A program made the translations under genes and the position numbers. From NCBI RefSeq assembly GCF_050003625.1, contig NC_134397.1, positions 226,176,537 through 226,240,536 of the forward strand: a DNA stretch of 64,000 bases, given 5' to 3'. The notes under the pieces were generated by a model, which worked only from the letters and a program-made list of their open reading frames with translations, searched no databases and was not told where the DNA came from. Position 1 is the stretch's first letter. The number at the start of each line of letters is the position of its first letter. Shown here in pieces: positions 4,418 through 55,610 of the stretch. The DNA is from Haematobia irritans. Taxonomy: Eukaryota; Arthropoda; Insecta; Diptera; Muscidae.

Positions 4418-4722
4418 TACCAAAATTTTATTTTTATGGAAAACATTGTTAAAATGTTATTTCTATAGAAAATTTTGTCAAAATTTTATTTCTATAGAAA
4501 ATTTTGTCAAAATTTTATTTCTATAGACAATTTTTTAAAAATTTTATTTCTATAGAAAATTTTGTCAAAATTTTGTTTCTATAGAAAATTTTGTCAAAAT
4601 TTTATTTCTATAGAAAATTTTTTCCAAATTTTTTTTCTATAAAAATTTTTTTCCAAATTTCACTTCTATAGAAAATGTTGTCAACATTTTATTTTGTCAA
4701 AATTTTATTTCTATAGAAACTT
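4418..4722. repeat. 29-bp minisatellite within B1
   Basis: About ten imperfect copies of a unit made of TTTTGTCAAAATTTT and ATTTCTATAGAAAAT. It is the same minisatellite as at 7485, 31205, 43752 and 61735. Confidence 0.9.
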
Positions 4723-6689: not shown

Positions 6690-8013
6690 TATACCCTCCA
6701 TCATAGGATGGGGGTATATTAACTTTGTCATTCCGTTTGTAACACATCGAAATATTGCTCTAAGACCCCATAAAGTATATATATTCTGGGTCGTGGTGAA
6801 ATTCTGAGTCGATCTGAGCATGTCCGTCTGTTGAAATCACGCTAACTTTCGAACGAAACAAGCTATCGACTGGAAACTTGGCACATGTAGTTGTTATTGA
6901 TGTAGGTCGGATGGTATTGCAAATGGGCCATATCGGTCCACGTTTACGTATAGCCCCCATATAAACGGACCCCCAAATTTGGCTTGCGATTGCTCCCAGA
7001 GAAGCAAATTTCATCCGATCAGGCTGAAATTTGGTACATGGTGTTTGTATATGTTCTCTAATGACCATGCAAAAATTGGTCCACATCGACCCATAAATAT
7101 ATAGCCCCCATATAAGCCGATCCCCACATTTTACCTCCGGAGCCTCTTAGAGGAGCAAAATTCATCCGATCCGGTTGAAATTTGGTACGTGGTGTTAGTA
7201 TAGGGTCTCTAACAACCATGCAAGAATTGGTCCATATCGGTCCATAATTATATATAGCCCCCATATAAACCTTTCCCCAGATTTGATCTCCGGAGCCTGT
7301 TGGAGGAGCAAAATTCATCCGATCCGGTTGAAATTTGCAACGTGGTGTTAGAAAAAGCCGCTAATAACCATGCCAAAATTGGTCCATATCGGTCTATAGT
7401 TATATATAGCCGATCCCCAATCACACAAAAATTGGTCCATATGGGTTCATAATCATGGTTGCGACTCGAGCCAAAAAAGATCTAACAAAATTTTATTTTT
7501 ATAGAAAACATTGTAAAATGTTATTTCTATAGAAAATTTTGTCAAAATTTTATTTCTATAGTAAATTTCGCCAAAATTTTATTTCTATAGAAAATTTTGA
7601 CAAAATTGTATTTCTATAGAAAATTTTGTCAAAATTTTATTTCCATAGAAAATTTTGTCAAAATTTTATATCTATAGAAAATTTTGTCAAAATTTTATTT
7701 CTATACAAAATGTTTTCCAAATTTTATTTCTATAGAAAATTTTGTCAAAATTTTACTTCTATACAAAATGTTGTCAAAATTTTATTTTGTCAAAATTGTA
7801 TTTCTATAGAAACTTTAAACTTAATTCTATACGTATTTAATCGGCCTTTTTAGTTTAATATATACCACGTATGGATTATGTGGTATATATTACGGTGTTA
7901 GGAAGTTTTAAGATACCTTGCCATCGGCTTCAGTAGAAGTTTTTACGCAATCCATGGTGGAGGGTACATAAGCTTCGGCCTGGCCGAACTTACGGCCGTA
8001 TATATTTGTTTTT
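6690..8013 (-). mobile_element. Family B element, copy B2, complete layout
   Basis: t-end TATACCCTCCATCATAGG at 6690, the (TA)n/(GTCY)n tail, 153-bp units, a 29-bp minisatellite and the h-end hairpin TTCGGCCTGGCCGAA. It ends ACGGCCGTATATATTTG. The order matches B1 and B5. Confidence 0.9.
7485..7812. repeat. 29-bp minisatellite within B2
   Basis: Eleven or so degenerate copies of the unit TTTTGTCAAAATTTT plus ATTTCTATAGAAAAT. Frames that read through it are artefacts. Confidence 0.9.
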
Positions 8014-12416: not shown

Positions 12417-12495
12417 TATACCCTCCATCATAGGATGGGGGTATATTAACTTTGTCATTCCGTTTGTAACACATCGAAATATTGCTCTAAGACCC

Positions 12496-12972
12496 TTTAC
12501 ACCTTTTCGTATAAGACTGCTGTTGGTCAAATCCTACGTCCTCCCTATTTTGTTGTATTGTTGTGAAATTTTCTCTGGATGTAACACCACCGACTTAAAA
12601 AGACTAACAACCACGTTCAACAATATTGCCCGCTATGTCTTCGGATTGAAACGTTATGATAGTGTGACACTTTTTGCGAACAAAATTTTTGGTATCCCGT
12701 TTGACAAATACGTTCAACTCAGAACTCTGTTATTCCTCCAAAAAATTATACACACAAAGGAACCATCATACCTCTACGAACGATTAACATTCGCTAGATC
12801 CAACCGTGGTAACAATTTGATACAGACTCAACATAGAAGTCAGTTATCTGAGCGGCAGTTTTATATATATGCGACTCGTCTCTGGAATCAGTTACCCAAT
12901 CAACTTCAACGTATATACAACACAGTGCAGTTCAAGACGAAGCTAACAAAATATCTAATTCAGGGCGATTAA
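12496..12972 (+). pseudogene. LINE ORF2 C-terminal fragment, RT thumb and downstream region
   Basis: An open frame of roughly 158 codons enters from the truncated 5' side and runs to TAA at 12970-12972. Features include VLPILLYCCEIF near the start, then ARYVFGLKRYD, and RLWNQLPNQL near the C-terminus. The last is a hallmark of the region after the RT domain in jockey/CR1-type elements. The catalytic YADD-type box lies upstream and is absent. No internal stop is present, so the insertion looks fairly young. I cannot assign the clade. Confidence 0.85.
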
Positions 12973-13176
12973 ATAACAAAAAAAAAAAAAAAAAAAATTA
13001 TTAATATCTAATTCATAACCATATTATATGTAATTCCTATTCATAATTATTGTTATTATACTTCTTAAAATATCTACTTATTATATTTATTATAACATTA
13101 TTGATTCTAATACTCATTATAAGATATATATCTTGTGTATTAGGAACCCAAAAATAAATAAAAGAAAATGAAAATG
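12496..13176 (+). mobile_element. 5'-truncated non-LTR retrotransposon (LINE) insertion
   Basis: Flanked by AGACCC on both sides (12490-12495 and 13177-13182), a target duplication of the B tail. It contains the end of a reverse-transcriptase ORF, an A-run at about 12979-12996 and an A-rich 3' tail ending AAAATGAAAATG. Severe 5' truncation plus target duplication is typical of target-primed reverse transcription. Confidence 0.9.
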
Positions 13177-13457
13177 AGACCCCATAAAGTATATATATTC
13201 TGGGTCGTGGTGAAATTCTGAGTCGATCTAAGCATGTCCGTCCGTCCGTCCGTCTGTTGAAATCACGCTAACTTCCGAACGAAACAAGCTATCGACTTGA
13301 AACTTGGCACAAGTAGTTGTTATCGATGTAGGTCGGATGATATTGAAAATGGGCCATATCGGTCCACTTTTACGTATAGCCCCCATATAAAGGGACCCTC
13401 AGATTAGGCTTGTGGAGCCTCTAACAGAAGCATATTTCATCCGATCCGGCTGAAATT

Positions 13458-14252
13458 TATTTGAAATTTATTGAAATCGGTTCAGATTTAGATAGAGCTC
13501 CCATATATATCGTTCGCCCGATTTACACTCATTTGACCACAGTGGCCAATCTTTTACTCCGATTTAATTGAAATTTTGTACAGGGAGTAGAATTAGCATT
13601 GTAGCAGAGAGTAGAATTAGCATTGTAGCTATGCGTACCAATTTTGGTTGAAATCGGTTCATATTTCCCATATATAGCTTTCGCCCTATTTAAACTCATA
13701 TGACCACAGAGGCCAACTTTTAACTCCGATTTAGTTGAAATTTTGCACAGGGAATAGAATAAGCATTGTAGCTAAGCGTGCCAAATTTGAAATCGGTTCA
13801 GATTTAGATATAGCTCCCATATATATGGTTTTCTGATTTCAACAAAAATGGTCAAAATACCAACATTTCGACTGCTTAGTCGAAAAGTTGTAAAAATGAC
13901 TTTAATTTTCCTAAACTTCTAATACATATATATCGAGCTATAAATCATAAATAAACTTTTGCGAAGTTTCCTTAAAATTGCTTCAGATTTAAATGTTTCC
14001 CATATTTTTTTACTAACATTGTGTTCCACCCTAGTGCATTAGCCGACTTAAATTTTGAGTCTATAGATTTTGTAGAAGTCTATCAAATTCTGTCCAGATC
14101 GAGTGATATTTAAATGTATGTATTTGGGACAAACCTTTATATAGCCCCCAAGACATTTGACGGATGTGATATGGTATCGAAAACGTAGATCTAGAAATTG
14201 GTGCAGGGTATAATATAGTCGGCCCCGACCGACTTTAGACTTTCTTTACTTG
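13458..14252 (-). mobile_element. Family C fragment, copy C1
   Basis: Begins mid-unit (TGAAATCGGTTCAGATTTAG). It carries units with CTCCCATATATATC and TTTCGCCCGATTTACACTCA. The non-repeated segment follows (CTGCTTAGTCGAAAAGTTGT, TTTCCCATATTTTTTTACTA). It ends with the hairpin AGTCGGCCCCGACCGACT and TTTCTTTACTTG. The T-run used as an insertion site in other C copies is empty here. The t-end is absent; it joins B4 directly. Confidence 0.88.
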
Positions 14253-18691: not shown

Positions 18692-18693
18692 TA

Positions 18694-20631
18694 AAATTGC
18701 CACTGCTTAGTCGAAAAATTGTAAAAATGGCTCTAATTTTCCTAAACTTCTAATACATATATTTATCGAGCGATAAATCATAAATAAACTTTTGCGAAGT
18801 TTCCTTAAAATTGCTTCAGATTTAAATGTCTCCCATATTTTTTATACCCACCACCATAGGATGGGGGGTATATTAACTTTGTCATTCCGTTTGTAACACA
18901 TCGAAATATTGCTCTAAGACCCCATAAAGTATATATATTCTGGGTCGTGGTGAAATTCTGAGTCGATCTGAGCATGTCCGTCCGTCCGTCCGTCCGTCCG
19001 TCCGTCTGTTGAAATCACGCTAACTTCCGAACGAAACAAGCTATCGACTTGAAACTTGGCACAAGTAGTTGTTATTGATGTAGGTCGGATGGTATTGCAA
19101 ATGGGCCATATCGGTTCACTTTTACGTATAGCCTCATATAAACGGACCCCAAAATTTGGCTTGCGAGGCCTCTAAGAGAAGCAAATTTCATCCGATCCGG
19201 CTGAAATTTGGTACATGGTGTTAGTATATAGTCTCTAATAACCATGCAAAAATTGGTGCACATCGGTCTATAATTATATATAGCCCCCATATAAACCGAT
19301 CCCCCGATTTGGCTTGCGAGGCCCCTAAGAGAAGCAAATTTCATCCGATCCGGCTGAAATTTTGTACATGGTGTAAGTATATGGTCTCTAACAACCATGC
19401 AAAAATTGGTCGACATCGGTCCATAATTATATATAGCCCCCATATAAACCGATCCCCCGATTTGGTTGCGAGGCCTCTAAGAGAAGCAAATTTCATCCGA
19501 TCCGGCTGAAATTTGGTACATGGTGTAAGTTTATGGTCTCTAACAACCATGCAAAAATTGGTCCACATCGGTCCATAATTATATATAGCCCCCATATAAA
19601 CCGATCCCCCGATTTGGCTTGCGAGGCCTCTAAGAGAAGCAAATTTCATCCGATCCGGCTGAAATTTGGTACGTGATGTTAGTATATGGTCTCTAACAAC
19701 CATGCAAAAATTGGTCCACATCGGTTCATAATTATATATAGCTCCCATATAAACCGATCACGAGATTTGACCTCCGGAACCTCTTGGAAGACCAAAATTC
19801 ATCTGATTCAGTTGAAATTTGGTACGTGGTGTTAATATATGGCCTCAAACTCCCATGCAAAAATTGGTCGATATCGGTCCATAATTATATGTAGGCCCCA
19901 TATAAACCGATCCCCAGATTTGACCTCCAGAGCCCCTTGGAAGAGCAAAATTCTTCCCATTCGGATTTGCTAGTATATGGTCGTTAACAACCATGCTTAA
20001 CTAGGTCCATATCGGTCTATAGTTATATATGGCCCTCAGATAAATCGATCCCCAATCACACAAAAATTGGTCCATATCAAGTTCATAATTGTATAAAGCC
20101 CCATATAAGCGACCCCCATATTTCAATTCTGGCTCTCTACGTACAAAAAGTCCATATCGATTCGTAATTATTTGTAGACTTAACTATACATAACTTTTTT
20201 GTCTAATATATACCATGTATGGACTAAATCACAATTTAGAAAACGATGTTAAGAAGTTTTAAGATACCACAACCCAAGTAATTCGATTGTGGATCATAAT
20301 CTTTCCTAGAAGTTTCTACGCAATCCATGGTGGTGGGTACATAAGATTCGGCCTGGCCGAACTTGCGGCCGTATATACTTGTTTTTTACTAACATTGCGT
20401 TTCACCCTAGTGCATTAGCCGACTTAAATTTTGAGTCTATAGAATTTGTAGAAGTCTATCAAATTCTGTCCAGATCGAGAGATATTAAAATGTATGTATT
20501 TGGGACAAACCTTTTATGTATAGCACCCAACACAATTGACGGATGTGGTATGGTATCGAAAATTTGGATCTACAAAGTGGTGCAGGGTATAATATAGTCG
20601 GCCCCGCCCGACTTTAGACTTTCCTTACTTG
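18694..20631 (-). mobile_element. Family C element C4 hosting a complete B element
   Basis: The left part (18694-18842) is the C segment CACTGCTTAGTCG through TGTCTCCCATATTTT. The right part (20382-20631) resumes TTTTTACTAACATTGCG and ends with the hairpin AGTCGGCCCCGCCCGACT (20596-20613) and TTTCCTTACTTG. B5 occupies the site between, inside a T-run. The left unit array and t-end were lost at the mariner. Confidence 0.92.
18843..20381 (-). mobile_element. Family B element B5, best complete copy
   Basis: t-end TATACCCACCACCATAGG at 18843, then AAAGTATATATATTC and a perfect (GTCC)n run (18976-18998). Units repeat at 19241, 19394, 19546, 19699 and 19852, so the period is 152-153 bp. A short unique part lacks the minisatellite. 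The h-end hairpin TTCGGCCTGGCCGAA (20347-20361) lies 20 nt before the terminal ACTTG. Both boundaries are fixed by the C sequence that continues on each side. Confidence 0.95.
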
Positions 20632-21977: not shown

Positions 21978-24572
21978 GAGGCCCTTGAACTTGCAGATCC
22001 CTCATTGATACCATCGGGCCTAAAGTCATACCACAGAGGCCTTCGAGCCTAGGTTATGTTAGGTTAGGTATAATGGCAGCCCGATATTTCAGGCTCACTT
22101 AGATTAGATTCAGTCCATTGTGATACCACAGTGATGAACTTCTCTCTTATCACAAAGTACTGTCGATTCTATGTTAAGCTCAATGACAAGGGACCTCCTT
22201 TTTATAGCCAAGTCAGAACGGCGTTCCACATTGCAGTGAAACCATTTAGAGAAGCTGTGAAACACTCAGCAATGTCACCAGCATTACTGATGTGGGATAA
22301 TCCACCGCTGAAAAACTTTATAGAGTTTGGTTGAAACTGGGTTTGAACCCACAACCCTGTGTATGCAAGGCGGGCATGCTAACCATTGCACCACGATGGC
22401 TCATTCGGGCCTATGGTTTCTCCATTGAGACCTTCGGACCTGAAGTTTTCCCCATTGAGACGTTCTGGACTACAGTTCCACAACTGAGATCTTCATACCT
22501 ACAATTACACTACTGAAGCCTTCAGACATACACTCCCACCACTAAGATCTTCAGACATAGCGTTCCAACACTGTGACCTGCAAGTATACAGTCCCACCAC
22601 CTTTAAGATCTTCAGACGTGAAGTTTCCCCCATTGAGACATTCTGGCCTACAGTTCCACCACTGATATCTTCATCCCTACAATTGCACTACTGAAACCTT
22701 CAGACCTACGCTCCCACCACCAAGATCTTCAGACATAGCGTTCCAACACTGTGACCTACGAGTATACAGTCCCACCACGGAGTTTCTACCATGACAGAGT
22801 CTTTCGGGAATACAATTCCACCACTGACACTTTCTAGCCTAGAGTTTTTCCCGCTGTCACTTTCGAGGCAATGGTTCCTCCATTGAAAACCGCATGCCTT
22901 CAGACCTATCGCTGAGAACTTAAGCCTGTAGTCCGATCGCTGAGATCTTAGAGCCCATAAATCTACTATTTAAACCTTCGAACCTAAAATTCCACCACTG
23001 AGACCTTCGCACCGACAGTTCCACCACTGAAACCTTCGGACGTACAGTTTCAACACTAAGAGCCTCTGACCTAAAGTCTAATCACAAAGGCCTTCGGGAC
23101 TGCAGTCCCATCATTGATACCTTCGGGCCTAACGTTCCACCTTCGGACCTACAGCCTACTGAGTACTGAGTCCATCAGTCCTACAATTCCATCACTGAGT
23201 CCTCTAGGCCTACGAGTTTGATCGCCAGAATTGTGGGCCTACAGTTCACCCCTGAGTCTTACGAGTCTATAGTCTCAACACAGAGGCCTTCGGGGTTTAC
23301 AATTCTACCACTGAGAACTTCGGACCTACACTGAAACCTCCGGACGTACAGTTTCACCACTGACACCGTCGACACTACAGTCCCATCACAGAGGCCTTTG
23401 GGCCTACAGTCCCACCACAGATACCTTTGGACTCAACATTCCACTACTGAGACCTTCGGGCCTACAGTCCACGCACTGATTAATTCAAGCCTGAGTCCTT
23501 TAGACCTACAGTCTCACAAATCAGGCATTCGATCCTGTATTTCCACTACTGACACCTTTGGCCGACAATCCCATCACTAACACTATGGAGCCTAGAGTTT
23601 CACCCGCTGAAACTTTCGAGCCAACGGTTCTGCTACTGAGACCTACGGGCCTACAAGTCCATCACAAAGGTATTCGTGTCTACCGTTCAACTACACAGAC
23701 CTACCGGCCTACATTTGCACCATTGAGTCTCTGGCGTAGAGTCCCATAACTGAGGACTTTAGGTCTGCTGTTCCACTACTAAGACCTGCAGACATAACAT
23801 TCCACCACTGAGACCTTTAGGCCTACCGGTCCGCCACTGAGACCTGCAAGCCTACAGTTCCACCACATAGAGATTGAGGCCAACAGTCCCACCACAGAGT
23901 CCTTCGAACCTACAGTCTCAGCACAGTTCAACTACTGAGTATTTCAGACCATAGTTCCACCACAGAAGGCTTTCCGGCCTATAGTTCCACTACTGAGCCT
24001 TACGAGCCTACAGTTCCATCACAGTGACCATCGGGGCTACATTTCCACCACTGAAACCTACGGTCGATAGTACAATCCCATTACTGACATTTTCGAGCCT
24101 AGAATTTCATAAGCTGGAATTTCGAGCCAAAGGTTTTGCAATTGAGACCTACGGATCTACAGTGCCATTACTGAAGTCTTCGGACCTACAGTCCAACTTC
24201 TGAAACCTACCGAGCTACAGTTGTACCATTGAGTCTCTCGGGCACTAGTTCCATAAATGAGACCTTCAGACCTAAAAGTCCGCCAGTGAGCACTGCGGGA
24301 CTATATTTCCACCACTTGCTTAGAGTTCCACTAAATAGACTTTCAGGCCTACAATTCCCCCACTGAGACATTCGAGCCAAGATTTTCACTCGCTGAGACT
24401 TTCGAGCCAACGGTTCTGCCACTGAAACTTACTACTACAACTATTCTCCTGTTCCATAACTAAGGTTTTCGGGTATTAAGCCCCACCAAAGGTCTATGGG
24501 CTAACAGTCCCACAACTGAGGCATTCTGGCCTACAATTTCACCACTGAAAACTTCCGATATACAGCCCCCAC
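21978..24572. repeat. Long degenerate 29-bp tandem array, about 77 units, split by a SINE
   Basis: The unit is 29 bp: GAGACCTTCGGGCCTACAG followed by TTCCACCACT. Three consecutive units at 23390-23477 are each exactly 29 bp. The array is more GC-rich than its surroundings. It fills about 2.2 kb once the 352-bp SINE is excluded. Units diverge heavily, with occasional length changes. Because 29 is not a multiple of three the reading frame rotates, and no long ORF exists on either strand. It is unrelated to the AT-rich 29-bp minisatellite of family B. Confidence 0.93.
22052..22403 (-). mobile_element. tRNA-derived SINE inserted in the 29-bp array
   Basis: A minus-strand SINE with tail TTAGGTTAGG on the left and head GCACCACGATGGCTC on the right. 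It is flanked by TTCGAGCCTA (22042-22051) and TTCGGGCCTA (22404-22413), a 10-bp target duplication with one mismatch. The target is an array unit, so the array predates the SINE. The B box reads GGTTTGAACCC-like in this copy and is slightly decayed. Confidence 0.93.
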
Positions 24573-25600: not shown

Positions 25601-26311
25601 TCTTAGTTGGAGAGGAATACTTTGCAAAATCTCCCAAAACATCAAGAATTCAATTAATCTACCATTTTTGGTAGAATTGTACCAATTGTGGCAACCGTGG
25701 ACCACAACCAAAATCTAAAATTAACGGTAAAGTCTCTTAAAAAATACAACTTTTTATAAAAAAAAAAAAAAACAATTAAGGAAAGTCTAAAGTCGGGCGG
25801 GGCCGACTATATTATAACCTGCACCACATTGTAGATCTAAATTTTCGATACCATATCACATCCGTCAAATGTGTTGGGTGCTATATATAAAGGTTTGTCC
25901 CAATTACATACATTTAAATATCACTCGATCTGGACAGAATTTGATAGACTTCTACAAAATCTATAGACTCAAAATTTAAGTCGGCTAATGCACTAGGGTG
26001 GAACACAATGTTAGTAAAAAAACAAGTATATACGGCCGTAAGTTCGGCCAGGCCGAATCTTATGTATCCTCCACCACGAATTGCGTAGAAACTTCTACGA
26101 AAGACTGTCATCCACAATTGAATTACTTTGGTTGTGGTATCTTAAAACTTCTTAACACCGTTATCTAAATTGGTAGTCCATACGTGGTATATTAGCCAAA
26201 ACAGTTATGTATAGGTAAGTCTACCAATAATTACGAATCGATATCGACTTTTGCACGGTACGTAGAGAGCCAGAATTGAAATATGGGGGTCGCTTATATT
26301 GGGCCTATATA

Positions 26312-27244
26312 AAGGGTGATTTGTTAAGAGCTTGATAACTTTTTTTTTAAAAAAAACGCATAAAATTTGCAAAATCTCATCGGTTCTTTATTTGAAACGT
26401 TAGATTGGTCCATGACATTTACTTTTTGAAGATAATTTCATTTAAATGTTGACCGCGGCTGCGTCTTAGGTGGTCCATTCGGAAAGTCCAATTTTGGGCA
26501 ACTTTTTCGAGCATTTCGGCCGGAATAGCCCGAATTTCTTCGGAAATGTTGTCTTCCAAAGCTGGAATAGTTGCTGGCTTATTTCTGTAGACTTTAGACT
26601 TGACGTAGCCCCACAAAAAATAGTCTAAAGGCGTCAAATCGCATGATCTTGGTGGCCAACTTACCGGTCCATTTCTTGAGATGAATTGTTCTCCGAAGTT
26701 TTCCCTCAAAATGGCCATAGAATCGCGAGCTGTGTGGCATGTAGCGCCATCTTGTTGAAACCACATGTCAACCAAGTTCAGTTCTTCCATTTTTGGCAAC
26801 AAAAAGTTTGTTAGCATCGAACGATAGCGATCGCCATTCACCGTAACGTTGCGTCCAACAGCATCTTTGAAAAAATACGGTCCAATGATTCCACCAGCGT
26901 ACAAACCACACCAAACAGTGCATTTTTCGGGATGCATGGGCAGTTCTTGAACGGCTTCTGGTTGCTCTTCACTCCAAATGCGGCAATTTTGCTTATTTAC
27001 GTAGCCATTCAACCAGAAATGAGCCTCATCGCTGAACAAAATTTGTCGATAAAAAAGCGGATTTTCTGCCACTGATTTTGGTAATAAAATTCAATGATTT
27101 GCAAGCGTTGCTCGTTAGTAAGTCTATTCATGATGAAATGTCAAAGCATACTGAGCATCTTTCTCTTTGACACCATGTCTGAAATCCCACGTGATCTGTC
27201 AAATACTAATGCATGAAAATCCTAACCTCAAAAGAATCACCCTT
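26312..27244 (-). mobile_element. rosa-like (DD41D) Tc1/mariner element, internally deleted
   Basis: TIRs: AAGGGTGATTTGTTAAGAG on the left and the complement of AAGGGTGATTCTTTTGAGG on the right. TA flanks both sides (26310-26311, 27245-27246). The host B sequence is continuous once the element is removed. At 933 bp it is shorter than a complete element, because the N-terminal half of the transposase gene is deleted. Confidence 0.93.
26419..27072 (-). pseudogene. DD41D transposase, catalytic half only
   Basis: 217 open codons with no internal stop cover the DDE domain. The first Asp is in LFSDEAHFWLNGYVNKQNC, the second in WFQQDGATCHTARD, and the third in CDLTPLDYFLWGYVKSKVY. Exactly 41 residues separate the second and third, the signature of the DD41D rosa group. 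The frame opens only with GTG. The genuine ATG (27130-27132, reading NRLTNEQRLQIIEF) lies in another frame, upstream of a deletion that removed the helix-turn-helix region. It cannot make a full transposase, yet the catalytic part is intact, which suggests recent arrival. Confidence 0.95.
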
Positions 27245-29155
27245 TACAATTATGAAGTTTATATGGACCAATTTTTGTGTGATTGGGGAACGATTTATCT
27301 GAGGGCTATATATAACTATAGACCGATATGAACCTAGTTAGGCATGGTTGTTAACGGCCATATACTAGCACAATGTACCAAATTTCAACTGACTCGGATG
27401 AAATTTGCTCCTCCAAGAGGCTCCAAAACCAAATCTCGGGATCGGTTTATATGGGGGCTATATATGATTATGGACTTATATGGACCACTTTTGGCATGGT
27501 TGTTAAATATCATATACTACCACCACATACGAAACCAGATCGGATGAATTTTGCTTCTCCAAAAGGCACCGGAGGTCAAATCTGGGTATCGGTTTATATG
27601 GAGGCTATATATAATTATGGACTGATATGAACCAATTCCTGCATGGTTTTTGGATACCATATACTAACATCACGTACCAAATTTCAACCGATTCGGATGA
27701 ATTTTGCTCTTCCAAGGGGCTCCGGAGGACAAATCTGGGGATCGGTTTATATGGGGGCTTTATATAATTATTGACCGATTTCGACCAATTTTTGCATGGG
27801 TGTTTGAGGCCATATATTAACATCAAGTACCAAATTTCAACTGAATCAGATGAATTTTGGTTTTCCAAGAGGCTCCGGAGTTCAAATCTGGTGATCGGTT
27901 TATGTGGGGGCTATATATAATTATGGACCGATGTGGACCAATTTTTGCATGGTTGTTAGAGACCATATACTAACACTATGTACCAAATTTCACCCGGATC
28001 GGATAACAATTGCTTCTCTTAGAGCAATCGCAAGCCAAATTTGGGGGTCCGTTTATATGGGGGCTATACGTAAAAGTGGAACGATATGGCTCATTTGCCA
28101 TACCGTCCGACAAACATCAATAACAACTACTTGTGCCAAGTTTCAAGTCGGTAGCTTGTTTCGATCGGAAGTTAGCGTGATTTCAACAGACGGACTGACG
28201 GACGGACGGACATGCTCAGATCGACTCAGAATTTCACCACGACCCAGAATATATATACTTTATGGGGTCTTAGAGCAATATTTTGATGTGTTACAAACGG
28301 AATGACAAAGTTAATATACCCCCATCCTATGGTGGAGGGTATAATATGGGAAACATTTAAATCTGAAGCAATTTTAAGGAAACTTCGCAAAAGTTTATTT
28401 ATGATTTATCGCTCGACATATATGTATTAGAAGTTTAGGAAAATTAGAGCAATTTTTAAAACTTTTAGACTAAGCAGAGGCGATTTTAAAAGGAAAATGT
28501 TGGTATTTTGACAATTTTTGTCAAAATTAGAAAAACATATATAAGGGAGCTATATCTAAATATGAACCGATTTCAACCAAATTTGACACGCATAGCTACT
28601 ATGGCAATTCTACTCCCTGCGCAACATTTCAATTAAATTGGAGCAAAAAATTGACCTCTGTGGTCATATGAGTGTAAATCGGGCGAAAGCTATATATGGG
28701 AGCTATATCTAAATCTGAACCGATTTCAATAAAATTTGGCACACTTGACTACACTACTAATTGTACTCCTAGTGCAAAATTTCAACGAAATTGGGGTAAA
28801 ACTCTGGCTTCTGGGACCGTATTAGTCTATATCGGGCGAAAGATATATATGGGAGCTATATCTAAATCTGAACCGATTTCTTACAAAATCAATAGGGTTC
28901 TATTCTGAGCTAAAACACATACTTGTTCCACAATGTGGCGCAGGGTATAAAAAAAAATCATTTTGCCAATGTCTCTTAAAATGTGCGTCGAAGTACAAAG
29001 TAGAGGTGTATGCGTGTTCAATTCGAAAACGAAGCAGTATTCAGTTAATTTAAATATAATTTCTTCAAATCAAAATGTTTTTATTAACTTTAAGGAAAAT
29101 TGGCCATACTTTGCAGAGATACGACATTAAGTTTTGTAGATATGTATCCTTAATT

Positions 29156-30085
29156 CAATGGAACAAACTTTCTTTCAACTAAAATGTCATTACTTTCATA
29201 AAACTTGTGTTTAATATTGTATAAATTGGGTGTCCTAGATTTTTGCTTGCATAATCTTTCTCAGTAGGTCAATATCCAAGAAAGCGCTTATTTTGAACTT
29301 CACGAGAAGTATTTTCGAGGTGATTTATAAAAATCATTCGTTTAACGATATTTGGGAAATAAATTTAAATAATATATATTTTTTAATTTTACTGGGTATA
29401 AAAATAGTAGGGACAGACAATACAATAATGTACAGCCATAAAGTCCGATCAAGCCGACTCATAAATTTTATTTTTTTATTTATTTATTTATTTACAGCTC
29501 AAATATGCCATGACGTTATAAAATATAACAAACAAATAAAAAATATAACAATACAAATAGGCCAGTAAGGACCACGGCGAGACAGTAGGGACTCCAAAAT
29601 TAAATTTCTTTTAAATATTTCAATGGAACAAACTTTCTTTCAACTAAAATGTCATTACTTTCATAAAACTTGTGTTTAATATTGTATAAATTGGGTGTCC
29701 TAGATTTTTGCTTGCATAATCTTTCTCAGTAGGTCAATATCCAAGAAAGCGCTTATTTTGAACTTCACGAGAAGTATTTTCGAGGTGATTTATAAAAATC
29801 ATTCGTTTAACGATATTTGGGAAATAAATTTAAATAATATATATTTTTTAATTTTACTGGGTATAAAAATAGTAGGGACAGACAATACAATAATGTACAG
29901 CCATAAAGTCCGATCAAGCCGACTCATAAATTTTATTTTTTTATTTATTTATTTATTTACAGCTCAAATATGCCATGACGTTATAAAATATAACAAACAA
30001 ATAAAAAATATAACAATACAAATAGGCCAGTAAGGACCACGGCGAGACAGTAGGGACTCCAAAATTAAATTTCTTTTAAATATTT
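29156..30085. repeat. Exact 465-bp tandem duplication
   Basis: 29156-29620 is repeated at 29621-30085. Every stretch I compared is identical, including internal TTTATTTATTTATTTA and AATATAACAA runs. Each copy holds the same 91-codon frame (29293 and 29758), which has no recognisable homology and is probably fortuitous. Perfect identity means a very recent duplication or an assembly artefact. Confidence 0.95.
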
Positions 30086-31204: not shown

Positions 31205-32325
31205 TTTTCTAAAAAAAATTTTTACAAAATTTTCTCTAAGATAAAATGTTGAAAAAATTTTCTATCGAAATAAAATTTTGACAAAAAATTCTCTAGGAAT
31301 AAAATTTTGACAAAATTTTTTTATAGAAATAAAATTTTGACCAAAAGAAATCTCTAAGAATAAAATTTTGACAAAATTGTCTCTACAAATAAAATTTAAC
31401 AAAATTTTTTATACGAATAAAGTTTTTAAAAAATTGTCTATAGAAATAAAATTTTGACAAAATTTTCTATAGAAATAAAATTTTGACAAATTGTTCTATA
31501 GAAATAAAGTTTTAAGAAAATTTTCTATGGAAATAAAATTTTGACAAAATTTTCTATAGAAATAAAATTTTGTCAAACTTTTATATAGAAATAAAATTTT
31601 GACCAAATTTTCTATAGAAATAAAATTTTGACAAAATTTTCTATAGAAATAAAATTTTGACAAAATTTTCTATAGAAATAAAATTTTGACAAAATTTTCT
31701 ATAGAAATAAAATTTTGACAACATTTTTTATAGAAATAAAATTTTGACAACATTTTTTATAGAAATAAAATTTTGACAAAATTTTCTATAGAAATACAAT
31801 TTTGACAAAATTTTCTATAGAAATAAAATTTTAACAAAATTTTCTATAGAAATAATTTTTTGACAACATTTTTTATAGGAATAAAATGTTGACAACATTT
31901 TTTATAGGAATAAAATTTTGACTAAAATTTCTAAAAATATAAAGTTTTGACAAAATTTCTAAAGAAATGAAATTTTGACAAAAAAAAATCTCTAGGAATA
32001 AAACGATTACAAAATTTTCTATAGAAATAAAATTTTAACAAAATTTTCTATAGAAATAATATTTTGACAAAATTTCTATAGGAATAAAATTTTGACAAAA
32101 ATTTCTATAGAAATAAAATGACAAAAAATCTCTAGGAATAAAATTCTGACAAAATTTTTTCAACAAAAAAATTTTTTTTAAAACGTTTTCTCCAGGAACA
32201 AAATGTTGACAAAATTTTCTATACAAAAAATAGAAAAGAGTTTTGACAAAATTTTCTATTCCAAAAATAGAAAAGAGTTGTGACAAAATTTTCTATTAAA
32301 AAAAATTGTCAAATAGAAATCAAAA
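31205..32325. repeat. 29-bp palindromic minisatellite, about 38 units
   Basis: The unit is AAAATTTTGACAAAATTTT plus CTATAGAAAT. GAC recurs every 29 bp (for example 31630 and 31659). The centre of the array is nearly perfect and the edges are degenerate. It abuts the h-end of E3. Confidence 0.95.
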
Positions 32326-39086: not shown

Positions 39087-39592
39087 GGATAAAAACTTCG
39101 GATTCTAGAAGCCCAAGAAGTAAAATCGGGAAATCGGTCTATATGGGGGATATACCAGAATATTGACCGATGCTCACCATTTTCGGCACACCTCTTTATG
39201 GTCCTAAAATACCTCTAGATTTCCAATTTCAGACAATTTGGATAAAAACTACGGTTTCTATAAGCCCAAGACTTTAAGTCGGGAGGTCGGTTTATATGGG
39301 GACTATATCAAAACCTGGACCGATATAGCCCATATTCGAACTTGACCTGCCTGCAGACAAAAGACGAGTTCGTGCAAAATTACAGCACGATTGCTTCATT
39401 ATTGAAGACTGTAGCGTGATTACAACAGACAGATAGACAGACGGACAGACGAACATCGTTATATCGTCTTAGAATTTCTCCCTGATCAAGAATATATATA
39501 CTTTATATAGTCGAAAATCGATATTTCGTTGTGTTACAAACGGAATGACAAACTTATTATACCCCCGTCACCATTCTATGGTGGTAGGTATA
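39087..39592 (+). mobile_element. Family E tail fragment E5
   Basis: Part of two units, then GACGAGTTCGTGCAAAATT, GACAGATAGACAGACGG, GATCAAGAATATATATACTT and the t-end hairpin CACCAT/ATGGTG. It joins family C exactly at ATATGGGAAAC. Confidence 0.88.
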
Positions 39593-39956
39593 AAAATATG
39601 GGAAACATTTAAATCTGAAGCAATTTTAAGGGAACTTTGCAAAAGTGTATTTATGACTTATCGGTCGATAGATATGTATTCATTGGATTCATTTTAGAAG
39701 TTTTCGACTAAGAAGTGTCGGTTTTACAAGGAAAATGTGGGTAAAATACCCAATATGCCCAATTTTGCCGAAATCACAAAAATACATATATATGGGAGTT
39801 ATATCTAAATCTGAACCGATTTCAACCAAATTTGGCGTGCAAAGCTACAATGTTAATTCCACTTCCTGTGCAAAATTTTACTTAAATCGGATTACAACTT
39901 TAACCTCTGTTGTCATATGAGTGAAAATCGGGGAAAAGATGTATATTTGAACTATA
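39593..39956 (+). mobile_element. Family C fragment C6
   Basis: ATATGGGAAACATTTAAATC followed by one and a half units. Interrupted at a TA by a DD37E transposon, with no C sequence on the far side. Confidence 0.85.
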
Positions 39957-39958
39957 TA

Positions 39959-40941
39959 AAGGGTGATACGGTCAAAGTTTGGTCAATATAAACTTGACGT
40001 ATTTCTTTCAATTTTGCATTTAAAAAACCTGAACACCCCTCATTTTGAAGGTGTATGTGTGTAGAATGTTGCTCCTAGTTTGATTTTGGAATTCACTCTT
40101 CAGTTGTCAAAATGCCGTCCAAGCAAGAAGAGCAGCGTATCAAAATTTTGCTCGCGCATCGCGAAAATCCGAGCTACTCGCACGCAAAGCTGGCAAAATC
40201 GCTAAAAGTTGCCAAATCAACCGTTACAAATGTAATTAAAGGGTTTGGGGAACGTTTGTCGACAGCCAGGAAGTCTGGATCGGGGGGAAATCGAAAACCG
40301 GAAACCGCTGAGACGACAAAGAGAGTTGCCGGTAGTTTCAAGCGAAACACTAACCTCTCTCTCCGAGATGCCGCAAATAAGCTGGGTGTATCGTCTACAA
40401 CCGTGCATCGAGCCAAAAAACGAGCCGGACTATCGACTTACAAGAAGGTAGTGACTCCAAATCGCGATGATAAACAAAATACGACGGCCAAAGCGCGATC
40501 TCGGAGGCTGTACAAGATGATGCTGACGAAGTTTGACTGCGTGGTAATGGACGACGAAACCCACGTCAAAGCCGACTACAAGCAGCTTACGGGACATGAG
40601 TTTTATACGGCAAAAGGAAGGGGAAAGGTAGCAGATATTTTCAAGCACATGAAATTGTCAAAGATCTGGTTTGGCAAGCCATCTGTACCTGTGGCTTGAA
40701 AAGCAGCATTTTCATAGCTTCCGGGACTGTCAACCAAGAAATTTACGTGAAAGAGTGTTTGAATAAACGTCTGCTGCCTTTCCTAAAGAAACACGGTTGT
40801 TCCGTACTGTTTTGGCCGGATTTGGCATTGTGCCATTACGGTAAAAAGGTCATGGAGTGGTACGCTGCCAACAACGTGCAGGTGGTTCCCAAGGACAAGA
40901 ACCCTCCCAAAACGCCAGAGCTCCGCCCAATTGAGAAATTT
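39959..40941 (+). mobile_element. DD37E (ITmD37E-type) element, 3'-truncated
   Basis: TA at 39957-39958, then the TIR AAGGGTGATACGGTCAAAG. It matches the complete copy at 52317-53573 up to CCAATTGAGAAATT near 40941, then ends in unrelated sequence. The right TIR is missing. Confidence 0.92.
40112..40941 (+). pseudogene. DD37E transposase, broken copy 1
   Basis: A Tc1/mariner-superfamily transposase of the DD37E group known from mosquitoes and other dipterans. ATG at 40112 (MPSKQEEQRIKILLA). Two helix-turn-helix motifs follow: SHAKLAKSLKVAKSTVTNVI, and LSLRDAANKLGVSSTTVHRA. The first catalytic Asp is in VVMDDETHVKADY. A 13-bp deletion between repeated CAAAG near 40663 shifts the frame and stops it at 40699. 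The other frame (40696 on) continues with FWPDLALCHYG (second Asp) and PELRPIEKF (Glu); 37 residues lie between. Truncated after the Glu. Confidence 0.95.
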
Positions 40942-43180: not shown

Positions 43181-43527
43181 AAGTCTGATATAATTTAATT
43201 TGAATATTAAAATGAGTATTCGGAGTAAAGAGAATAGACATTCGGAACCAAGAGAATAGGCATTTGAAAAAAAGTAGGACGTGTTTTTGGCTTGGAAGAG
43301 CATTTTATGTATGTGTGGACATGTCTTTTGTTTATCATTTCGGCATTATGGGTTTATTTTTTGGTTCGTCAAAAGAAATCGGAACGTAGGAATAAGTCAA
43401 AATATTCAAACAAAGGAAATAAAAAAAATAAAAACTCTGGAAAATAAATAAAAATTACAAAGGGATCTTCATAAAAAATAACGAAAGGGCACTTTACTCT
43501 TTTAAGAGTTGGGACAGTAAAATGAAA
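43181..43527. other. No gene seen
   Basis: AT-rich spacer with no recognisable repeat. Confidence 0.4.
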
Positions 43528-43751
43528 CAAGTAAATTCGGCCACGCCGAATCTTATGTACCCTCCACCATGGATTGCATAGAAACTTGTACTAAAGACTG
43601 TCATCCACAATCGAATTACTTGGGTTGCGGTAACACTTGCCAATGGCAAGTTATCTTAAAACTTCTTAACACCGTCTTCTCAATTGTAAGTTAGTTCATA
43701 CTTATATTAGACAAAAAAACGGCCGATTAAATACGTATATAATTCAGTTTA

Positions 43752-43990
43752 ACAAAATTCTCTATAGAAATAAAATTTTGACAAAATTTTCTATAGAAAT
43801 AAAATCTTGCCAAAATTTTATATAGAAATAAAATGTTGACAAAATTTTCTATAGAAATAAAATTTTGACAAAATTTTCTATAGAAATAAAATGTTGACAA
43901 AATTGTGTATAGTAATAAAATTTTGACAAAAATTTCTATAGTAATAAAATTTTGACAAAATTTTCTATTGAAATAAAATTTTGGTAGATT
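43752..43990. repeat. 29-bp minisatellite within B7
   Basis: Eight units of AAAATTTTGACAAAATTTT plus CTATAGAAAT, ending TTTTGGTAGATTATTTGTGG at the start of the 153-bp units. Confidence 0.92.
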
Positions 43991-44217
43991 ATTTGTGGGG
44001 ATCGGCTATATATAACTATAGACCGATATGGACCAATTTTGGTATGGTTGTTAGCGGCCATTTACTAGCGCAATGTACCAAATTTCACCAAGTACCAAAT
44101 TTCTACAGGATCGGATGAATTTTGCTCCTCCAAGAGCTCCGGAGGTCAAATCTGGGGATCGGTTTAAATGGGGGTTATATATAATTAAGACCGGTATAGT
44201 TATATAACAAGTAAGAA

Positions 44218-45850
44218 AAAATTAAAGTCGGGCGGTGCCGACTATATTATACCCTGCACCACTTTGTAGATCTATATTTTCGATACCATATCACATCCGT
44301 CAAATGTGTTGGGGGCTATATAAAGGTTTGTCCCAAATACATACATTTAAATATTACTCGATCTGGAAGAATTTGATAGACTTCTACAAAATCTACAGAC
44401 CCAAAATTTAAATCGGCTAATGCACTAGGGTGGAACACAATGTTAGTAAAAAAATATGGTAAACGTTTAAATCTGAAGCAATTTTAAGGAAACTTCGAAA
44501 AAGTTTATTTATGATTTATCGCTCGATATATATGTATTAGAAGTTTAGGAAAATTAGAGTAATTTTTACAACTTTTCGACTAAGCAGTGGCGATTTTACA
44601 AGGAAAATGTTGGTATTTTGACCATTTTTGTCGAAATCAGAAAAACATATATATGGGAGCTATATCTAAATCTGAACCGATTTCAACCAAATTTGGCACG
44701 CATAGCAACAATGCTAATTCTTCTCCCAGTGCAAAATTTCAACTAAATCGGAGTTAAAAATTGGCTTCTGTGGTCATATGAGTGTAAATCGGTCGAAAAC
44801 TATATATGAGAGCTATATCTAAATCTGAACTGATTTCAACCAAATTCGACACGCATAGCAACAATGCTAATTCTACTCCCTGTGCAAAATTTCAACTAAA
44901 TCGGAGTTAAAAATTGGCCTCTGTGGTCATATGAGTGTAAATCTGGCGAAAGCTATATATGGGAGATATATCTAAATCTGAACCTATTTCAACCAAATTT
45001 GGCACGCATAGGTACAATGCTAATTATACTCCCTGTGCAAAATTTCAACTAAATCAGACCAAAAAATTGGCCTCTGTGGTCATATGAGTGTAAATCGGTC
45101 GAAAGCTATATATTGGAGCTATATCTAAATCTGAACCGATTTCAACCAAATTCAACACGCATAGCTATAATGCTAATTCTAGTCCTTGTGCAAAATTTCA
45201 ACTAAATCGGAGCAAAAAATTAGCCTCTGTGGTGTAAATCGGGCGAAAGCTATATATGGGATCTATATCTTAATCCAAACCGATTTCAACAAAATTTGGC
45301 ACGCATAGCTACAATGTTAATTCTACTCCCTGTGCAAAATTTCAACCAAATTGGGGTAAAACTCTGGCTTCTGGGACCGTATTAGTCCATATCGGGCGAA
45401 AGATATATATGGGAGCTATATCTAAATCTGAACCGATTTCAATAAAATGTGGCACGCTTGACTATAGTACTAATTGTTCTTCTTGTGCAAAATTTTAAGT
45501 AAATTATGTTAAAACTCTGGCTTCTGGGGCCATATAAGTCCATATCGGGCGAAATATATATATGGGAGCTATATCTAAATCTGAACCGATTTCTTCCAAA
45601 ATCAATAGGGATCTATTCTGCGCCAAACACATGCTTGTGCCAAATTTGAAGTCGATTGGACTAAAACTGCGACCTAGACTTTGATTACAAAAATGTGTTC
45701 ACGGACAGACGGACATCGCTATATCGACTCAGGAGCCCACCCTGAGCATTTTTGGCAAAGACACCATGTGTCTATCTCGTCTCCTTCTGGGTGTTGCAAA
45801 CATATGCACTAACTTATAATACCCTGTTCCACAGTGTGGTGCAGGGTATA
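44218..45850 (+). mobile_element. Family C element C7, complete and free of insertions
   Basis: h-end CAAGTAAGAAAAAATTAAAG with hairpin, and an intact TTAGTAAAAAAATATGG site. Units start at 44671, 44824, 44977, 45130, 45274, 45427 and 45580 (153 bp, one 144). The tail is GACGGACATCGCTATATCGA. The t-end hairpin at 45819-45849 pairs ATACCCTG with CAGGGTAT and CCACA with TGTGG. The best reference copy for family C in this window. Confidence 0.95.
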
Positions 45851-46589
45851 ATTAAGACCGTTACCAAATTTCAAGCGGATCGGATGAATTTTGCTCTTTC
45901 AAGAGGCTCCGTAGGTCAAATCTGGGGATCGGTTTATATGGGGGCTATATATAATTATGGACCGATTTGTACCAATTCTGTCATGGTTATTAGAGACCAT
46001 ATACTAACACCACGTACCAAAATTCAATCGGATCCAAATTTGGGGATGGGTTTATATGGGGCCTATATATAATTATGGACTGATATGTACCAATTCTGGC
46101 ATGGTTGTTAGAGACCAGATACTAACACCACGTACCAAAATTCAATCAGATCCAAATTTGGGGATGGGTTTATATGGGGGCTATATATAATTATGGACCG
46201 ATGTGGACCAGTTTTTGCATGGTTGTTAGAAACCATATACTAACACCATGTACCAAATCGGAAGAAATATGCTTTTCTTAGAGGCTCCGCAAGCCAAATC
46301 TGGGGGCTATATGTAAAAGTGAACCGATATAGCCCATTTGCAATTCCTTCCGACCTACATCGATAACAACTACTCGTGCCAAGTTTCAAGTCGATAGCTT
46401 GTTTCGTTCGAAAGATAGCGTGATTTCAACAGACGGACGGACATGCTTAGATCGACTCAGAATTTCAGCACGACCCAGAATATACATACTTTATGGGGTC
46501 TTAGAGCTATATTTCGATGTGTTACCATCGGAATGACAAAGTTAATTTGCACCCCATCCTATGGTGCAGGGTATAAAAAAACAGGGTAT

Positions 46590-51980: not shown

Positions 51981-52316
51981 TCATATTATTCTCATGTTTA
52001 TTTTACTTTTAGTTCATTTTGATTTTCAAGAAGGATCCATTTCGTAAATCGTAGTTAAAAATCTAAAAGTGTCAGAAAATGCAAATTCAATTTTCACAGG
52101 AGATAGTTCATTTTTCCCATAACATAGTTTATTTTGTTTCTGTGTTGTGTGTATGGACCAGTTCCAGTTCTAGTCAAAACGTAAAGAATGGACTAGTCAC
52201 TTTAATACGTATTTATACCCTGCGCCACACTGTGGAACAGGGTATTATTAAGGAGACGAAATAGACACATGGTGTCTTTGGCAAAAATGCTCAGGGTGGG
52301 CTCCTGAGTCGATATA

Positions 52317-53573
52317 AAGGGTGATACGGTCAAAATTTGGTCAAGGGAAAACGCATGTAAATCGGTGAAATCGTTTATTTAAAAAATCAAATTAAATTTC
52401 TTTTTCAAGCTCGATTAGAATAAAATTCAGGAAAAATATTCAGTTGGGCTTTCGCTTTTCCAAATCCGAATTGCCGGGCCTCACGCTTGACACACGCCAT
52501 CAGATTTTGTACAGCCACCTTGTCCACTTTCTTCGCCGCAGAAAGCCAGTTTGCTTTGAACTGCTGCTTGTCCTTAGCAGTTTTTTTGGTCTTCTTTAGG
52601 TTCCGCTGGACAATAGCCCAGTATTTCTCAATTGGGCGGAGCTCTGGAGTGTTGGGAGGGTTCTTGTCCTTGGGAACCACCTGCACGTTGTTGGCGGCAT
52701 ACCACTCCATGGCCTTTTAACCGTAATGGCAAGATGCCAAATCCGGCCAAAACAGTACGGAACAACCGTGTTTCTTCAGGAAAGGCAGCAGACGTTTATT
52801 CAAACACTCTTTCACGTAAATTTCTTGGTTGACAGTCCCGGAAGCTATGAAAATGCTGCTTTTCAAGCCACAGGTACAGATGGCTTGCCAAACCAGATAT
52901 TTCTTTGCGAACTTTGACAGTTTTATGTGCTTGAAAATATCTGCTACATTTCCCCTTCCTTTTGCCGTATAAAACTCCTGTCCCGGAAGCTGCTTGTAGT
53001 CGGCTTTGACGTAGGTTTCGTCGTCCATTAGCACGCAGTCAAACTTCGTCAGCATCGTCGTGTACAGCCTCCGGGAGTCACTACCTTCTTGTAAGTCGAT
53101 AGTCCGGCTCGTTTTTTGGCTCGATGCACGGTTGTAGACGATACACCCAGCTTATTTGCGGCATGTCGGAGAGAAAGGTTAGGGTTTCGCTTGAAACTAC
53201 CGGCAACTCTCTTTGTCGACTCAGCGGCTTCCGGTTTTCGATTTCCCCCCGATCCAGACTTCCTGGCTGTCGACAAACGTTCCCCAAACACTTTAATTAC
53301 ATTTGTAACGGTTGATTTGGCAACTTTTAGCGATTTTGCCAGCTTTGCGTGCGAGTAGCTCGGATTTTCGCGATGCGCGAGCCAAATTTTGATACGCTGC
53401 TCTTTTTGCTTGGACGGCATTTTGACAACTGAAGAGTGAATTCCACAATCAAAATAAGAGCAACATTCTACACACACACACCTTCAAAATGAGGGGTGTT
53501 CAGGTTTTTTAAATGCAAAATTGAAAGAAACACGTCAAGTTTATATTGACCAAATTTTGACCGTATCACCCTT
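52317..53573 (-). mobile_element. DD37E (ITmD37E-type) element, both TIRs present
   Basis: TIRs AAGGGTGATACGGTCAAAAT at 52317 and its complement ATTTTGACCGTATCACCCTT at 53573. TA on both sides (52315-52316, 53574-53575). Removing it restores the C tail GATATAGCCATGTC. 1257 bp; a near full-length element. Confidence 0.96.
52405..53420 (-). pseudogene. DD37E transposase, broken copy 2
   Basis: Start codon at 53420 (MPSKQKEQRIKIWLA). Both helix-turn-helix motifs are present (SHAKLAKSLKVAKSTVTNVI; NKLGVSSTTVHRA). A 43-bp deletion after KKVVTP, relative to the copy at 40112, shifts the frame. The second frame holds CVLMDDETYVKADY (first Asp) and SVLFWPDLASCHYG (second Asp). A TAA then replaces a Lys codon. 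The third part carries PNTPELRPIEKYW (Glu, 37 residues after the second Asp) and a basic C-terminus ending EFYSNRA. The C-terminus lost from copy 1 is preserved here, so the two copies are complementary in what they retain; neither is functional. Confidence 0.96.
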
Positions 53574-54193
53574 TAGCCATGTCTGTCTGTCCGTGAACAC
53601 ATTTTTGTAATCAAAGTCTAGGTCGCAGTCTAGGTCGCAGTGTGCCAAATTTTGTTGAAATCGGTTCAGATTTAGATATAGCTCCCATATATATCTTTCG
53701 CCCGATTTACACTCATATCACCACAGTGGTCAATCTTTTACTCCGATTTAATTAAAATTTTGCACAGGGAGTAGAATTAGCATTATAGCTATGCGTGCCA
53801 AATTTGGTTGAAATCGGATCAGATTTAGATATAGCTCCCATATATAGCTTTCGCCCGATTTACACTCATATGACCACAGATGCCAATTTTTAAATCCGAT
53901 TTAGTTGAAATTTTGCACAGGGAGTAGAATTAGCATTGTATCTATGCGTGACAAATTTGGTTTAAATCGGTTCAGATTTAGATATAGCTCCCATATATAT
54001 GTTTTTCTGATTTCGACAAAAATGGCCAAATACCAAAATTTTCCTTGTAAAATCGCCACTGCTTAGTCGAAAAGTTGTAAAAATGACTCTAATTTTCCTA
54101 AACTTCTAGTACATATATATCGAGCGATAAATCGTAAATAAACTTTTATGAAGTTTCCTTAAAATTGCTTCAGATTTAAATGTTTCCCATATT

Positions 54194-55610
54194 TATACCA
54201 TGCGCCACACTGTGGAACAGGGTACTATAAGTTAGTGCATATGTTTGTTACACCCAGAAGGAGACGAGATAGACACAGGGTGTCTTTAGCAATAATGCTC
54301 AGGGTGGGTCACTGAGTCGATATAACCATGTCCGTCTGCCCGTCCCTCCGTCCGTCCGTCTGTCTGTAAACACATTTTTGTGATCAAAGTCTAGGTCGCA
54401 ATTTAAGTCCAATCGCCTTAAAATTTGGCACATGTTCCTAATTTGGGTCAGAATAGAACCCTATCGATTTTGGAAGAAATCGGTTCAGATTTAGATATAG
54501 CTCCCATATATATCTTTCGCCGGATATGCACAAATATGGACCCAGCAGCCAGAGTTTTATACCGATTTGCTTGAAATTTTGTACAAACATAACACTTAGT
54601 TGCATAGTCAAGTGTGCAAAATTGGATTGAAATCGGCTCAGATTTAGATATAGCTCCCATATATATCTTTCGCCCGATATCGACTTATATGGCCCCAGAA
54701 GCCAGATTTTTTTGCAGAATTTGGTTGAAATTTTGCACTAGGAGTACAATTAGTAGTATAGCCAAGTGTGCAAAATTTGACTGAAATCGGTTCAGATTTA
54801 GATATAGCTCCCATATATATCTTTCGCCCGATATGGACTAATATGGTACTGTAAGCCAGAGTTTTGGCCCAATTTGGTTGAAATTTTGCTTTCGCCCGAT
54901 TTACACTCATATGACCACAGAGGCCAATTTTTAACTCCGATTTAGTTGAAATTTTGCACAGGGAGTAGAATTGGCATTGTAGCTATACGTGCCAAATTTG
55001 GTTGAAATCTGTTCAGATTTAGACATATCTCCCTTATAAAGCTTTCGCCCGATATATCTCACATAAATAGCTTTCGCACGATTTACACTCATATGACCAC
55101 AGAGGCCAATTTTTAACTCCGATTTAGTTGAAATTTTGCACAGAGAGTAAAATTAGCATTGTAGCTATACGTGCCAAATTTGGTTGAAATCGGTTCAGAT
55201 TTAGATATAGCTCCCATATATATGTTTTTCTGATTTCGACAAAAATGGTCAAAATACCAACATTTTCCTTGTAAAATCGCCACTGCTTAGTCGAAAAGTT
55301 TTAAAATGACTCTAATTTTCCTAAACTTCTAACACATATATATCGAGTGATAAATCATAAATAAACTTTTGCGAAGTTTCGTTAAAATTGCTTCAGATTT
55401 AAATGTTTCCCATATTTATTTTTTACTAAAATTGTGTTCCACCCTAGTGCATTAGCCAACTTAAATTTTGAGTCTATAGATTTTGTAAAAGTCTATCAAA
55501 TCCCGTCCGAATCGAGTGATATTTATATGTATGTATTTGGGGCAAACCTTTATATATAGCACCCAACACATTTGACGGATGTAATATGGTATCGAAAATT
55601 TAGATCTACA
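54194..55610 (-). mobile_element. Family C element C9 inserted into C8
   Basis: t-end TATACCATGCGCCACACTG directly after CCCATATT of C8. Then TGTCCGTCTGCCCGTCC, about six units, and its own uninterrupted site near 55410-55425 (TTTCCCATATTTATTTTTTA). It is cut at 55610 by an unrelated TIR sequence before the h-end hairpin. Confidence 0.9.

Follow-up and report, generated by a model that had tools for sequence, protein, structure and literature searches.

Insertion into T-rich targets without a clear duplication is published for the DINE-1/HINE group (PMC4067079, PMC2374699), for which the available sections propose a cut anywhere between Ts (PMC4067079) and, for DINE-1 under one choice of ends, a short WTT/WTTTT preference (PMC2374699). 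Elements of similar build have been described elsewhere. DINE-TR1 carries central tandem repeats of ~150 bp (PMC9957191, PMC6922343), Helitron2_Cv and Helitron3_Cv are abundant DINE-like elements of a calyptrate fly, Calliphora vicina, with sub-terminal inverted repeats, a 3′ stem-loop and GTCY-rich repeats (PMC3630058), and Cg_HINE of the Pacific oyster combines satellite-like central repeats with a T-rich target at which no duplication was found (PMC7492417).

We analysed a 64,000-nucleotide stretch of Haematobia irritans DNA (hereafter the window), which is crowded with non-coding repeats that share one plan, B, C and E being three such families. An element begins with ATACC after Ts, followed by a CACCA-type inverted repeat, a head, central repeats and a tail; the tail holds the partner of the inverted repeat and a short palindrome and closes with CTTG, or a near variant of it, ahead of Ts. 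Sub-terminal inverted repeats were present in 7 of 7 elements tested, with 0 to 5 of 500 shuffles reaching the score. Four of five ends gave a predicted 3′ hairpin where one was expected (C7 folds otherwise), and 3 to 37 of 200 shuffles folded equally well. Central tandem repeats of B, C and E have periods of 151–154 bp, with exceptions of 118 bp in the B element at 46574 and 182 bp in part of C9, and GTCC repeats are present in B4. Neither a Rep/helicase nor an endonuclease partner was found among the Pfam matches of 10 of the 25 frames in the window, and searches against Rfam and against viral and prokaryote contigs each returned 0 matches.

The sub-terminal inverted repeats, the T target and the central repeats fit the DINE-1/HINE group, such that B, C and E are, judged from their sequence, putative non-autonomous DINE-1-like/HINE (Helentron-type) elements. 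They share with this group the sub-terminal inverted repeats and central repeats, as well as variable T numbers at the ends, a T-rich target and paralogous empty sites, and resemble it in a predicted 3′ palindrome and an apparent lack of a clear duplication, as far as the available sections describe them (PMC4067079, PMC2374699). Their central repeats match those of DINE-TR1 when compared by period, not sequence; they resemble the Calliphora elements in sub-terminal repeats, a predicted 3′ stem-loop and, compared by description, in the GTCC repeats of B4; and they are like Cg_HINE in repeat structure and target. Unlike what the available sections of the DINE-1/HINE papers describe, one internal C site takes thousands of insertions at one point; those on DINE-TR1 describe no landing site, those on C. 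vicina report few nested copies, and those on Cg_HINE, which is from another phylum, describe no single repeated target. Reuse of one internal target was not found in the literature among the matches listed, weak evidence that none has been reported. Elements of this kind are known and, as far as searched, the built-in landing site is apparently new to the literature.

The landing tract and its guests in the window

A first-pass annotation had proposed that a single T-run in family C was hit repeatedly by different elements. Repeated use of one C tract by different elements was confirmed, and the tract is a hot spot genome-wide. It lies 241–244 bp from the C 3′ end and reads CCCATA-T7-ACTAAC when empty. 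The following features of the window bear on it or lie beside it.

13461–14252, plus strand: C1, the C tail of a B/C chimera
13996–14017, plus strand: empty tract in C1, CCCATA-T7-ACTAAC, exact match
18692–18843, plus strand: left part of C4, ending in the tract
18844–20381, plus strand: B4, complete element in the C4 tract, with 6 Ts left and 6 right
20382–20631, plus strand: right part of C4, with 3′ hairpin and CTTG end
28343–28948, minus strand: left part of C5, with its 5′ end at 28948 and 9 Ts before that end
26023–28342, minus strand: B5, complete element in the C5 tract, with 2 Ts left and 7 right
26311–27245, minus strand: Tc1/mariner-type insert inside B5 and younger than it, transposase frame at 26419–27090
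25773–26022, minus strand: right part of C5, with 3′ hairpin
39593–39957, minus strand: left part of C6, ~78% like C7, its tract joined to the E 5′ end
39089–39591, minus strand: 5′ part of an E element in the C6 tract
44208–45851, minus strand: C7, complete, with an empty tract at 44442–44463; it lies inside a B element (46574–43513)
52213–54193, plus strand: left part of C8, with a Tc1-like insert at ~52317–53573, its tract joined to the C9 5′ end
54194–55575, plus strand: C9 in the C8 tract, 3′ end lost, its own tract altered (T3-A-T6) and empty
4421–4694, 7486–7787, 31211–32227, 43748–43983 and 61755–63115: 29-bp minisatellite

The left side of the tract is kept in seven C copies in the window, and the part of C to its right is present at five places only (C1, C4, C5, C7 and C9). 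Three empty sites had been annotated. Those in C1 (exact) and C7 (one mismatch) were recovered, whereas C9 differs, its T3-A-T6 run being followed by ACTAAA. The empty-site query gave 0 matches in 100 shuffles, and a match at 39584–39605 with three mismatches is the E junction in C6. As annotated, both C4 and C5 are split at the tract by complete B elements. The placement of E in C6 and of another C in C8 held for the 5′ junctions, which lie at the tract, but in both cases the 5′ junction is the only one visible.

Several other structures were noted in the window. The chimera at 12417–14252 joins a B head to a C tail, with the junction in tandem repeats at a common GAAATTT. Within a B head, an insert at ~12496–13176 carries a 205-aa frame without a Pfam match, which has three relatives at 47–59% identity and is possibly LINE-like. 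Tc1-like copies at 39957–40939 (the end of C6) and 52623–53575 (inside C8) are 91% identical. The transposase frame of the B5 insert shows 99% similarity to a Haematobia irritans protein and 97% to one in a Leptinotarsa decemlineata record, making the insert a candidate for horizontal transfer on protein similarity. A perfect 465-bp tandem duplication at 29154–30083 is either very recent or an assembly artefact. Copies of the AT-rich 29-bp minisatellite lie in several B tails and form two long arrays. At 22428–24221, diverged 29/58-bp repeats make up an array that is richer in G+C, has a strong GC skew and is unlike the rest of the window.

Strand and T counts at the junctions

Insertions in the window adjoin Ts, and the element strand continues the T strand at 15 of 15 5′ ends and 14 of 14 3′ ends. 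With termini placed by eye, at least two Ts stand before each of the 15 listed 5′ ends and at least five before 11 of them, compared with 13 and 3, respectively, of 160 other ATACC words in the window; each of the 14 listed 3′ ends is likewise followed on that strand by at least two Ts. The 5′ scan yielded 27 rows. Of these, 14 were used, 11 proved to be the inverted repeats belonging to 3′ ends, and two were dropped, 10016 as unclear with two Ts and 18871 as internal; 54194 was added, and 61538 was retained although only its first bases fit. From the 16 rows of the 3′ scan, four were dropped (4777, 4729, 39996 and 53536) and two were added, and 10243 and 17166 were left out of the set of ends as truncated or unclear. 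The tract Ts are on the C strand, so a guest must share the orientation of its host. Equal orientation of B in its two hosts was considered as evidence for co-amplification and set aside as uninformative, because at every listed end the Ts belong to the strand of the element itself. The apparent target of C7 inside the B element at 43513–46574 is flanked by only two Ts, with GGTCTTAA on both sides.

Numbers of Ts differed between the two sides of a guest. In the window, ATACC is preceded by two Ts in B5, three in C9 within C8, five in E within C6 and six in B4, and CTTG is followed by seven in B5 and six in B4, the empty run having seven. Genome-wide, 2,416 C-type 3′ ends are joined to the right side of the tract, and among the first 100 listed (tallied by eye) six Ts were found in 78, five in 11, seven in 4 and another number in 7. 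Empty sites at the sampled loci described below most frequently had seven Ts (34), with eight (13) and six (12) next in frequency. The position of the 3′ junction thus hardly varies and falls one T into the run. For the left side, the first 100 filled sites (counts copied by hand from the filled-site list and then tallied) had three Ts in 57 cases, five in 31, six in 3, seven in 2, four in none and an interrupted run in 7. Exactly five Ts were found at 47 of 50 filled control sites in C repeats and in 36 of 52 other C insertions.

Six cases could be counted on both sides, with left/right Ts of 6/6 and 2/7 in the window and 5/6, 3/6, 5/6 and 3/5 elsewhere. Larger left counts are not matched by smaller right counts, so the left Ts do not derive from the division of a single run. 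In total, these six cases have 1 to 5 Ts more than the empty run, and nothing is doubled outside the Ts. The annotated statement that the empty sites fix exact boundaries and show no target duplication was too strong, given 2 to 5 extra Ts at filled sites of the window. A small T duplication may occur at the tract. The left Ts could come with the inserting element, or the five-T class could reflect the doubling of two Ts.

Occupancy of the tract across the genome

We searched 1,173,491,510 bases of the genome, including the contig to which the window belongs (contig C1). The 25 bases before the T-run occur exactly 12,441 times and the last 16 bases 17,135 times, and in 4,636 of the latter (27%) ATACCC follows within 12 bases, which we define as filled; reversed controls gave 0, 1 and 0 matches for the 25-base flank, the 16-base flank and filled sites, respectively. 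The 4,636 are a lower bound for filled sites with the 16-base flank, because changed ends such as ATACCT are missed, and do not equal the number of independent insertions, since local duplication can inflate them. Filled places are distributed along the contig, some of them in short clusters. The filled share is uneven (near one chromosome end it was 12 of 90 in one count and 12 of 100 in another, compared with 27% genome-wide), such that local duplication may add to the 4,636.

T-runs elsewhere in the same elements were almost unfilled. A control within the C central repeats, ACCACAGAGGCCAA followed by six or more Ts, is intact at 12,003 places, and ACCACAGAGGCCAA is followed by ATACCC within 12 bases at only 50 (0.4%), giving a ratio of fill rates between tract and C repeat T-runs of ~65. 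Among these 50 filled control sites, one row is not a T-run and 22 fall in one cluster at 126.71–126.86 Mb of contig C4; the ratio is ~116 if the cluster is counted as one event and the non-T-run row is removed. Many of the 22 clustered sites are ~2 kb apart, and the cluster resembles a nested unit repeated in tandem. A second control used the transposon of which a copy is present in B5; its run of at least seven Ts was filled in 3 cases versus 8,305. This control is biased toward the hot spot, part of the gap being age, because a copy lies inside B5 and the transposon is younger, at least there. In the leading listed places, 12 of the first 100 tract places were filled within the first 10.27 Mb of contig C1, whereas the first filled place of the C repeat control is at 33.07 Mb and its 100 listed intact places extend to 13.33 Mb (Fisher P = 0.0002). 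The near absence of guests from the C repeat runs and the younger transposon's run indicates that a preference for T-runs alone is insufficient. Mapping of insertions into C, suggested by the annotation and run here in part, supports the insertion preference that had been proposed, but the target is the C tract in particular and not T-runs as such.

We also sorted a sample of 90 tract loci, taken from the first 100 listed places with the 25-base flank, all near one end of contig C1. Twelve were filled, 72 were empty and six were empty-looking but damaged, with the T-run followed by C pieces with deletions (by eye). A looser sorting (81 empty, 6 filled, 3 unclear) was discarded since it counted filled sites as empty. 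Guests at the 12 filled loci were C-type in ten cases, B in one and E in one; the C-type guests comprised seven C heads and three related heads, with a C-type 3′ end in the two related heads that show it. Two loci (L074 and L078), counted among the seven C heads, have at the tract only ~26–36 bases of the C 5′ end, corresponding to the terminal palindrome, before the host resumes, and we read these short guests as aborted insertions or later deletions.

Upstream of the tract, T-runs in the C bodies of the sampled loci number 1,027 with four Ts, 262 with five, 54 with six, 7 with seven and 1 with eight, and no guest 5′ or 3′ end was found in them. The tract differed from C-body runs of six or more (0 of 62; P = 0.004) and of five or more (0 of 324; P = 2 × 10−7), while the comparison with runs of seven or more (0 of 8; P = 0.41) is one for which the sample has no power. 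The share of insertions into C expected at the tract, judged from the lengths of runs that C has entered elsewhere, is 0.18–0.34, compared with 10 of 10 observed in a motif scan, which recovered 10 of the 12 filled sites. Guests that the scan placed elsewhere with C at their left (L015, L032 and L081) are at tract sites of other C copies, L032 being the same site as L033. Run length affected C insertions in the sample only ~1.4-fold between six and seven Ts. In the window alone, the chance of 4 of 15 insertions falling at the tract is 0.011 if runs of seven or more are hit evenly and 6 × 10−8 to 3 × 10−5 under five length-weighted models, and rough Fisher values, with denominators set by eye, range from 0.00007 to 0.039 over all settings.

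Probable independent insertion and rival readings

The reading that we regard as very probable is that Helentron-type machinery picks the C tract far above other T-runs, and that independent insertions of C-type, B and E elements made thousands of nested units. Non-autonomous, rolling-circle B, C and E elements would be mobilised by an enzyme encoded elsewhere, which would insert them adjoining Ts with the element strand continuing the T strand. It would choose CCCATA-T7-ACTAAC nearly always at one point, leaving six Ts on the right, and presumably recognises the sequence or DNA shape around the tract; separate insertions of the three kinds of element would then have built up the nested units. 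The place occupied by C7, with its two Ts, counts against this explanation. That a long T-run merely happens to be present in many C copies, the tract itself being nothing special, would agree with the T-flanked 5′ and 3′ ends in the window and with the favouring of longer runs by C insertions. However, C repeat runs of six or more Ts are filled ~65 times less often, the length effect is slight and the 3′ junction falls at one point, such that plain T-run preference is largely refuted and highly improbable. The tract might instead be favoured for its state and not its sequence, whether as replicating or unwound DNA of other elements or as open C chromatin, as the predominance of C-type guests in the sample (10 of 12) would suggest; we consider this unlikely, as guests spare the other parts of these C copies and the junction is precise to a single base, which points to local sequence or shape.

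A few C elements could also have been copied as units together with their guests, and the cluster on contig C4 indicates that local copying happens. C4 and C5 are compatible with such an origin: the left parts of these hosts share two variants, their difference (5.5%) is the lowest among eight C pairs compared, although intervals overlap, B4 and B5 differ by a similar 6.2%, and the nearest head to B5 is that of B4 (4.3%). Four other B heads, however, lie nearer to B4 than B5 does, and B4 and B5 have 0 shared private variants, shared variants being a weak test for a single pair in star-like families. Across the sample, filled hosts do not cluster: their mean left-flank difference is 8.7% among the 12 filled hosts versus 5.7% among the 72 empty ones, and 10 of the 12 have an unfilled copy as their nearest host. 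That filled hosts are no closer to each other than empty ones argues against amplified composites, and supports preference, favoured in the annotation, over co-amplification. Several guest types occur at both left T counts and filled places are scattered along the contig, which leaves copying of composites very improbable as the general explanation. Under independent insertion at a preferred tract, evidence is evenly balanced as to whether the C landing pad is sequence-specific in the sense that new C elements and their relatives are drawn to the pad in an older C, settle inside it in one set orientation and each supply a further pad.

Repeated insertion of C into already nested C would be expected to show as a ladder of C tails. 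In the genome search, two C tails are often 7–8 bases apart, and four junction pairs are 248–249 bp apart in the list of C-end/tract junctions. Ladders of C tails with a spacing of ~249 bp could possibly seed satellite DNA. Target choice by Helentrons is hard to study because T-rich targets blur the junctions, and the tract provides a natural experiment on enzyme recognition, with 17,135 flank copies, at least 4,636 of them filled, and T-runs of the same element almost spared. The tract also offers a way for a transposon family to expand within its own copies while sparing genes. If the landing-pad reading is true, an element that carries its own target would be a safe haven that feeds itself.
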